A stretch of DNA of 46,871 bases from Chitinophagales bacterium. GTDB lineage: Bacteria; Bacteroidota; Bacteroidia; Chitinophagales; UBA2359. Of the stretch, positions 1 through 46,811 are shown one piece after another. The notes under the pieces are model-generated. The model saw only the letters and a program-made list of their open reading frames with translations. It was not told the DNA's origin and did not search any database. How positions within the stretch are numbered: the first letter of the stretch is position 1; each line of letters starts with the position of its first letter. The stretch is taken from the NCBI GenBank assembly GCA_020629005.1, contig JAHDEE010000020.1, positions 1 through 46,871 on the forward strand, given 5' to 3'. Made by a program: the position numbers and the translations under genes.

Positions 1-12
1 CGGCGGACTGTG

Positions 13-193
13 GGTGCAAAATAGCCCGGATGGAAGAGGAAATGGCGGTGCTGAGGGCCGTGGCGACTGCTGGCTGCTGGTAGCTCGGAGCTTGCCGGAG
101 AGATGCCAGCAGCCTTGCAGGAGCAGGCCCGCAGTGCCGCCATTGGAACGGACAGCCGGAAGACCCTTAACGCGATGGTATAGGCATCGCTCC
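13..193 (+). repeat. Structured intergenic repeat, copy A
   Basis: Non-coding, GC-rich element of about 180 bp. It opens with GGTGCAAAATAGCCC (13-27) and closes with TCGCTCC (187-193), marks shared with the copies near 11.4, 24.9 and 46.5 kb. It can fold into a long outer stem, 41-59 with 126-144 (18 of 19 positions paired, including a tandem T-G/G-T wobble), an inner stem 72-80 with 106-114 plus CTGC/GCAG (67-70 with 117-120), and an apical segment 81-105 holding AGCTCGGAGCTTGC. The core 41-144 matches copy C at 97 of 104 positions, and two pairs of the outer stem change on both sides. Function is unknown: a structured RNA or a non-autonomous mobile repeat would both fit. Confidence 0.75.
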
Positions 194-11267: not shown

Positions 11268-11372
11268 GCAGCAAGTACGCAATATGGGCTACAAGTGATG
11301 CTTACGACTTCTGTGCCTTAGTCGGACTTATGTTTCAGTCAGCAAGAGCTAAAGTATAAGCGACCGGGAGAC

Positions 11373-11551
11373 GGTGCAAAATAGCCCCGGGCGAAACGGT
11401 ACGCAGTACCTGGATGCGCGGTGAGCGCCAGCCAGTGGTGGCTCGGAGCTTGCGGAGAGACGCCAGTGGCTGTGCAGCGAACCAGCAGGCAGGTGCTGTG
11501 TAATAGTGGAGCACGGGCAATCCGCCTCCACGTGCCAGCTTGCTTCGCTCC
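11373..11551 (+). repeat. Structured intergenic repeat, copy B
   Basis: Starts with GGTGCAAAATAGCCC (11373-11387) and ends with TTCGCTCC (11544-11551). Outer stem: TACGCAGTACCTG (11400-11412) with CAGGTGCTGTGTA (11490-11502), all 13 pairs formed including two wobbles. Inner stem: CAGCCAGTGG (11429-11438) with CCAGTGGCTG (11463-11472), one G-G mismatch. The apical segment contains GGCTCGGAGCTTGCGGAGAG, shared with copy D and nearly with A and C. Stem sequences differ from copies A and C while pairing is kept. Short open frames over it on both strands are not credible genes. Confidence 0.7.
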
Positions 11552-24845: not shown

Positions 24846-25026
24846 GGAGCGAAACGTTGAAAGAACGGGGAAACTGCAGTCCCGTGCTCCGTTCCAATGC
24901 TGGCACTGCGGGCCTGCTCCTGCATGGCTGCTGGCATCTCTACGGCAAGCTCCGAGCTACCATCAGCCAGCAGTCGCCACGGCCCTCAGCACCAGCATTT
25001 CCTCTTCGCCCGGGGCTATTTGGCTA
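24846..25026 (-). repeat. Structured intergenic repeat, copy C
   Basis: On the minus strand it begins with GCCAAATAGCCCCGG and ends with TTCGCTCC (24846-24853 as GGAGCGAA). Outer stem: 24981-24999 with 24896-24914; inner stem 24960-24968 with 24926-24934 (one mismatch). Over the 104-bp core it differs from copy A at seven positions; four of these are two double substitutions that keep outer-stem pairing (G-C to C-G and C-G to T-A). The 5' flank (GCGTAGGAGAGAC) resembles that of copy B, so the element may extend to about 25042. It occupies the 547-bp gap 24654-25201; the remainder is AT-rich without visible genes. Confidence 0.75.
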
Positions 25027-25201
25027 GGTCTCTCCTACGCTTTGGACATCTGAAATTGTAGATGAATGCATTAGATTGAATTTTACTATTTTAGACACTA
25101 TCTAAACGATTCTTTCTGGGAGGTTGTTTCTGAGAGAAGTACGAGAATCTTTGCATACTTAGCCACTGGATTTTACCTTGTTGCACAATCTTAGATAAAT
25201 T

Positions 25202-26597: not shown

Positions 26598-26852
26598 TAT
26601 TATGGAGGTTTCGGTGCAAAGAATTAGCAGTCCAAAGACCCTTGCGTGAGGGATAGGAGCGGAACGAGCCGCCGGGGATAGCGTGTGAGGCATGGCTGAT
26701 GGGGGCTCGGAGCTTGCGGAGAGACCACAGCAGCCATAAGCCGAACCGCTAGCCACAAGGTGAGTATTAGCGGATAGCCCGACCCGGAGCGACCGAAACA
26801 GAAGCGCAGCGCCTGTGTAGGGAGCGAAGGGGCACGCCCACCAAAAAAAGTG
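26598..26852 (+). repeat. Divergent structured intergenic repeat, copy D
   Basis: GC-rich non-coding DNA in the 434-bp gap after the membrane-protein gene. It contains GGCTCGGAGCTTGCGGAGAG (26704-26723), the same apical segment as copy B, inside a stem ATGGCTG (26692-26698) with CAGCCAT (26731-26737), a further TAGCG/CGCTA closing pair, and a small CCCT/AGGG hairpin at 26639-26652. A possible 5' end is CGGTGCAAA (26612). The rest differs from copies A-C and E, and it is longer (about 240 bp), so it may be a different subclass. Boundaries are approximate. Confidence 0.55.
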
Positions 26853-46281: not shown

Positions 46282-46395
46282 GCTGAAAAAAAGCATCAGA
46301 GGCCTACTGAGCAATAAACGGAAAACCTCAGCTAACCGATGCCCGCTAGCTTGGTTTGTCGTAAGTCTCTGTTTTGTAGACAAAGCATTCTATAA

Positions 46396-46572
46396 GGAGC
46401 GAAGCCATCACCATCGCGTCATCGGGCTCCCTGCTGTCCGCTATAATGCGGGCACTATGCAGGAGCTTCGCTGCTCCAGCGGGCGGGTCTTGCTAATGCA
46501 GCCCCGCCCGCTGGGCGCTCAGTCCCCTGCATAGCACCCGCATTCCGCTACCATCAGGGCTATTTTGCCAAT
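46396..46572 (-). repeat. Structured intergenic repeat, copy E
   Basis: On the minus strand it begins with GGCAAAATAGCCC and ends GCTTCGCTCC (46396 onward). Outer stem 46526-46544 with 46445-46463 pairs at all 19 positions, with the same tandem T-G/G-T wobble as copies A and C. The inner stem is a perfect 12-bp CCAGCGGGCGGG (46476-46487) with CCCGCCCGCTGG (46503-46514), with a 15-base loop unlike that of the other copies, and a small GGAGC/GCTCC hairpin follows on the minus strand. The 3' part shares CGGACAGC and ACGCGATGGT with copy A. Confidence 0.75.
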
Positions 46573-46617: not shown

Positions 46618-46774
46618 GGATTACAGCCTACAGATTCGAATCCCGACGCCCGGCGTGACGCCCCCAGTCGCGCCGTCAACTTGGCTAGCACCAGCTCAGT
46701 TGGTGAAAAATCGGCGTGGGGATTACAGGCTGCGGATTCGAACCCAATGCCCGGTGTGACGCACCGTCGCGCCG
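46618..46774 (+). repeat. Diverged direct repeat units in the non-coding tail
   Basis: Two units of 55-58 bp, 46618-46675 and 46720-46774, share GGATTACAG, GATTCGAA, GCCCGG, GTGACGC and TCGCGCCG. A linked piece, AGCTCAGTTGGTGAAAAATC (46693-46712), recurs near the window end as AGCTCGGTTGGCGATAAATC (46847-46866), giving a period of about 154 bp. The pieces resemble tRNA D- and T-arm sequence, but no acceptor, anticodon or T stem can be built. The array runs off the window. Confidence 0.6.
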
Positions 46775-46811
46775 ATCGCTTGCTTAATAATAAGTCTCTG
46801 TTTTGCACGAG

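Follow-up and report, generated by a model that had tools for sequence, protein, structure and literature searches.

A family of covarying intergenic hairpin elements related to the Flavo-1 motif in a Chitinophagales bacterium

Hairpin elements in the window and their architecture

The window, the whole stretch of DNA analysed here (46,871 nucleotides from a Chitinophagales bacterium, assembly GCA_020629005.1), holds five copies of a hairpin element of about 200 bases. They were located with R1, a covariance model trained on 40 copies (alignment A1), at 16-160 (+), 11376-11518 (+), 24880-25024 (-), 26650-26780 (+, of another class) and 46429-46568 (-). Part by part, the copies read as follows.

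1-15, plus strand: 5' box of copy A, shortened by the contig end, with GCGG and then GT ahead of GCAAAATAGCC; the box is a conserved block at -23 to -5 before ATAGCC in 42 copies
16-160, plus strand: covarying hairpin of copy A (R1 143.9 bits; Flavo-1 35.1 bits over 19-166; minimum free energy z of -6.4)
82-95, plus strand: invariant apical segment of copy A, AGCTCGGAGCTTGC
161-193, plus strand: 3' tail of copy A, ending in ATCGCTCC; TCGCTCC in nearly all of 42 copies
11356-11375, plus strand: 5' box of copy B
11376-11518, plus strand: hairpin of copy B (R1 126.4 bits)
11519-11551, plus strand: 3' tail of copy B, ending in TTCGCTCC
24846-24879, minus strand: 3' tail of copy C; the plus strand reads GGAGCGAA
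24880-25024, minus strand: hairpin of copy C (R1 146.1 bits; 91% identity to copy A over 137 nt)
25025-25043, minus strand: 5' box of copy C
26639-26840, plus strand: copy E, class II, GCGTGAGGGATAG...GGATAGCCCGACCC...GGGGCACGCC (R1 60.7 bits over 26650-26780, the inner domain being shared)
46396-46428, minus strand: 3' tail of copy D
46429-46568, minus strand: hairpin of copy D, within an unrelated repeat array (R1 91.4 bits; Flavo-1 31.7 bits)

Across 42 copies, GCAAAATAGCC follows a 5' box around CNGCGNNGG and leads into the hairpin; after this comes the tail, in which a similar CGCG..GG box appears again before the end TTCGCTCC, followed by A/T-A-A. The hairpin is multi-step, its purine-rich internal loops are conserved and its apex is invariant. 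Class II elements, copy E among them, combine the same inner domain with another outer end, closed by GCGTG...CACGC. Within each lineage, the 5' box and the one preceding the 3' TTCGCTCC are alike (CGCGNNGGG in the genome under study, ACGAAGCAC-like in MAG-100), in the manner of direct repeats that change together.

Several hundred copies are dispersed over the genome, their shape strictly kept while the sequence drifts. The apex GCTCGGAGCTTGC occurs four times in the window against 0.08 expected, and, with one mismatch at most, 229 times in the 6.9-Mb genome against none for a reversed control pattern, which sets a minimum for the copy count. With R1, 127 elements were detected over 1.36 Mb, a density near one per 11 kb; scaled to the genome this gives 640, an upper guide only, since the searched stretches were partly chosen for holding copies, while one subset of stretches (one per 15.6 kb) would give roughly 440. 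The E-values of R1 and of the model R2 are rough, and the genomes compared are draft assemblies with genes called by a simple ORF rule. Nearly all elements are intergenic, and most copies have their closest relatives on other contigs. The covariation and the intergenic placement argue against a coding origin, and the overlapping ORFs look spurious.

A covarying fold selected on one strand

A first-pass annotation had proposed that copies A (13-193, plus) and C (24846-25026, minus) share a stem with compensatory changes, and this observation is confirmed and proves much stronger than stated, far beyond chance. Both positions were borne out, as were the two double changes (pair 45-140, from G-C to C-G, and pair 46-139, from C-G to T-A), and the 104-nt core at 41-144 indeed shows seven differences, four of them within those two pairs. 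The count rises to 16 over all 145 nt of the hairpin, of which ten form five double changes that keep Watson-Crick pairing, two form a reciprocal swap of an A·G for a G·A mismatch and four are others; columns 30 and 129 pair in the folds of A and C but not in the alignment consensus. Both copies fold with unusually low energy (z of -6.4 for A and -5.3 for C).

The further copies, examined with a covariance model as the annotation had advised, keep the pairing. In A1, 97.0% of the pair cells pair, against 66.0% when shuffled and at most 43% with the arms slid, with double changes at 32 of the 39 pairs and as many as six pair types at a single position; the covariation score of the 40 copies is 0.805, against 0.204 shuffled and at most 0.134 with the arms slid. 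Among 27 copies from a sister species, which were left out of model building and aligned to R1, 94.0% of the cells are paired (64.1% shuffled), again with double changes at 32 of the 39 pairs. The model and the sister-species copies thus support the view that the structure of this dispersed intergenic element is conserved and covaries.

The covariation extends to a non-canonical purine mismatch, as columns 15 and 144 of A1 carry only two combinations, G·A (24 copies) and A·G (16). In addition, G·U cells outnumber A·C cells by 82 to 6 in the copies of the genome under study and by 72 to 7 in those of the sister species. Since a G·U on one strand is an A·C on the other, the selected fold is that of the element's plus strand, in the form of RNA or of single-stranded DNA; a symmetrical cruciform would not yield such a bias.

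Relation to Flavo-1, insertion sites and orientation

The annotation had also called the element undescribed and recognised no named family, which stands only in part: its outer frame is that of the Flavo-1 RNA motif (Rfam RF01705), a candidate structured RNA without assigned function since 2010 (Weinberg et al., 2010; PMC2864571), whereas the scores stay below the curated cut-off of that family. With cmscan, copies A and D reach 35.1 and 31.7 bits, and ten Flavo-1 matches in nine of twenty other loci reach 31.3-38.4 bits, all under the gathering score of 42 bits, because of the long inner domain. Model positions 1-76 are aligned in all listed matches, and the loop of the two window copies holds 80-82 residues; a profile search for Flavo-1 in the genome, at its filters, gave no match. 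The element shares with Flavo-1 the frame UAGCCcnGAUnGnAGnGG ... CGGAnAGCnGG over all 76 model positions, and the presence of many copies per genome in some species. Flavo-1 occurs in 95 of 247 genomes of the same class, and all 80 matches listed for the frame pattern are from Bacteroidota. Canonical copies carry a tail of the same kind after the hairpin (ending GCTCC or GCTTC in other lineages); the Rfam model covers the hairpin alone, with neither tail nor 5' box. The element differs from Flavo-1 in its inner helix domain, which is longer by about 80 nt and has an invariant apex, in its scores of 31-38 bits and in its second, class II end type. Intermediates are found as well: matched lengths in related genomes range from 77 to 146 nt, loci of Flavobacterium and of Chitinophagales MAG-100 reach the cut-off, and Chitinophagales MAG-166 (L282, L314, L259) shows a perfect outer frame around the long form. 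The window copies are therefore not members by Rfam score; their frame, their distribution and the intermediates nevertheless show a clear relationship, and we name them a long-insert variant of Flavo-1.

Comparison with the sister species (G001) revealed presence/absence differences in both directions. A copy lies between genes at L175:3600-3742 of G001 where the genome under study is empty (L080), and one at L076:1164-1307 of the latter, along with other inserted repeat DNA, faces an empty G001 site (L177). In G001 an element also occupies the sites of copies A and E, so many copies are old. At the site of copy B (11376-11551), beside a tRNA gene, the G001 element (L165:164-309) points in the opposite direction. 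The class II type of copy E (26639-26840) is found at more than 30 places of G001 with 76-90% identity, which suggests a more recent spread there. Copy D interrupts an unrelated repeat array, since its joined flanks match continuous repeat units elsewhere; that array family, GTCGCGCCGACNGCTTGGTTGGTCGTAAGTCTCTG (46343-46376 and 46772-46805 of the window, and L062), also surrounds a Y1 transposase gene in L062. In a paralogous region that lacks the element (C94 against C108), similarity continues to the GCTCC/TAA border, so that the 3' end probably lies there, with WAA as part of the target. No target-site duplication and no exact two-sided empty site was obtained between the compared species, which are about 65-80% identical, the filled and empty pairs being too diverged. 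A blastn search of plasmids and phages gave no match, and among 2.9 million viral contigs there was one (L351, IMGVR_UViG_3300009417_000013, with the Flavo-1 frame and the TTCGCTCC tail included). Hence there is no sign of horizontal carriage, and phage or plasmid cargo was discarded as an origin.

Towards the neighbouring genes the element keeps no fixed sense, with copies at gene starts and ends alike, and for lack of such a sense a 5' leader riboswitch or a fixed-sense 3' UTR element was rejected. Among 104 sites, read in the frame of the element, the gene strands are convergent in 37, tandem in 24 and 21 and divergent in 22, and convergent gaps are enriched (37/104 against 52 of 303 long intergenic gaps). 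At 66 of the 104 sites a gene lies closer to the 3' end than to the 5' end (p=0.008), most strongly where the 3' end faces a stop codon (median 66 against 132 bp). In the genome G004, elements bracket many gene groups. For Flavobacterium psychrophilum, it was reported that Flavo-1 matches lie seemingly without distinction sense or antisense to transcribed regions, and many outside them (PMC9723704).

Towards each other, the copies alternate. Neighbours are opposite in 68 of 85 cases (68:17, p = 2e-8; e.g., contigs C304, C341 and C7), and in 18 of 18 when less than 3 kb apart; the MAG-100 loci (L238-L315) give 66:8 (66/74, p = 2e-12). G004 contigs, most of them picked regardless of matches, give 35:4 (35/39; L387-L406), a count not taken as independent because G004 may be the same genome as MAG-100 or a very close one. 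Head-to-head is the usual arrangement of close pairs (28 of the 30 in MAG-100 that lie within 1.5 kb). A mere close-pair effect does not account for the pattern, given that single copies more than 3 kb apart are still opposite by 36:11, and local inverted duplication finds little backing as its cause (best partner on the same contig in 9 cases against 3.5 expected, p=0.02). Neither is alternation a general rule of Flavo-1, as G232, where copies are rare and about 100 kb apart, shows none (14 opposite against 15 same). Many contigs of the genome under study start or stop in or beside an element (e.g., window 1-193), usually with the 5' side outward, as if the assembly had broken between head-to-head pairs, and such breaks probably add to the alternation signal. 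Locus L393 of G004 (contig C100) holds a tandem duplication (about 5.5 kb), the unit of which contains a convergent element pair around one gene. The alternation could stem from insertion in pairs, from deletions that remove direct repeats or from a paired-border function.

What the element may be

We consider it somewhat probable, on balance, that this long-insert relative of Flavo-1 behaves like mobile DNA, as a non-autonomous element about 200 bp long. Several observations speak for this reading: the many dispersed and diverged copies, the strand-specific fold with conserved loops, the presence/absence differences, the insertion into another repeat, the lack of a gene relation and the reported absence of consistent transcription for Flavo-1 in F. 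psychrophilum. Under such a model, the folded plus strand, as single-stranded DNA or an RNA copy, would be recognised by a putative enzyme supplied in trans, which would join the element into intergenic sites adjoining a W-A-A trinucleotide; selection would then retain the shape and the proposed protein-contact loops, while the helices would drift freely. Against it, no mobilising enzyme was found, and several element-rich genomes lack Y1 transposases as far as their incomplete assemblies show. Like MITEs, the element is short, dispersed, non-coding, structured and intergenic; unlike them, it showed no terminal inverted repeats, as in the end profiles of 42 copies the 5' CNGCGNNGG box and the 3' TTCGCTCC end are not complementary and the end boxes look direct rather than inverted.

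A possible but rather less probable alternative is a cis-acting RNA element at the borders of transcription units, where the reversed stem with GGCTATTTT could stop outgoing transcripts and head-to-head pairs could insulate neighbouring units. The enrichment of convergent gene pairs, the nearness of the 3' end to facing stop codons, the gene groups bracketed in G004 and the CCCCGGGGCTATTTT-like reverse strand in the genome under study are in keeping with this. However, the intrinsic-terminator feature GGCTATTTT, present in that genome, is not conserved in G232, where the AAAA that would supply the U-tract is replaced (TTTTAGCC, ATTTAGCC); the G·U excess places the selected fold on the other strand; copies stand at gene starts as well as ends; and a simple terminator scan, of a kind not built for long interrupted stems, was negative at A and C. 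If termination did occur, transcript 3' ends would lie at GGCUAUUUU.

Two further proposals appear unlikely. The first holds that the covariation arises mainly from template switching in replication, by quasi-palindrome correction, and not from selection on structure. Such switching is a documented source of compensatory change in RNA hairpins (PMC8794818), and in the inner stem (columns 57-65) nearly all pairs are Watson-Crick (G·U in 3 of 320 cells) though each of the four pair types is frequent. Such correction would, however, remove the mismatched loops that are conserved, and the G·A/A·G exchange together with the outer stem, with 59 G·U against 3 A·C, requires pairing on one strand, which argues that template switching is not the whole story. 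The second, which we put forward as a speculation, is that Flavo-1-type elements could act as direction-sensitive genome punctuation, with alternating copies, head-to-head at borders and with tails to genes, bracketing each gene block as a convergent pair and serving as insulators or anchors through the single-strand fold. In the literature searched, no such orientation-coded system of intergenic hairpins was found.

A multicopy family of trans-acting small RNA genes is very improbable. Rfam types Flavo-1 as Gene; sRNA, and the strong, single-strand-specific fold would suit such a role, but the copies number several hundred and are diverged, with conservation limited to loops and ends, many Flavo-1 matches of F. 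psychrophilum lie outside transcribed regions, and no promoter-like site was seen at A or C with a sigma-70 scan that is unsuited to Bacteroidota.

We give least credence to the view that these are REP/BIME repeats and that a RAYT (Y1 transposase) moves them. In the genome under study each of the three Y1_Tnp genes has a copy within about 1 kb, and the element shares with REPs, BIMEs and REPINs its hundreds of intergenic hairpins, its inverted close copies and a likely non-autonomous state, but two of those three genes lie amid different repeats of their own, a 145-nt multi-loop hairpin is far longer than a REP (20-40 bp), and four genomes with dozens of elements (G001, G006, G017 and G041, 83-98% complete) have no Y1_Tnp match, on which ground the Y1 transposase was rejected as a general mover. 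No REP-type GTAG/CGTC tag stands out in the end profiles of the 42 copies. A Y1 transposase gene other than that of L062 (L063, on contig C17) lies among CCATTCTTCAATTTCATTGGAGAATTAACTATGATAAGTAAACGTGTGTCTAG-type repeats, likely a REP family of its own.

The Flavo-1 motif was known but unexplained; the element is a longer relative of it, and what is new here is the alternating orientation. This single genome offers a large and unusually complete natural experiment, in which nearly every helix, the covarying G·A mismatch included, is kept while the sequence changes. The 3' tail, the 5' box, the long inner domain, the strand-specific folding, the presence/absence differences and the alternating orientation go beyond the present record of the family, and they point to a mobile or genome-organising element, and less to an ordinary small RNA.
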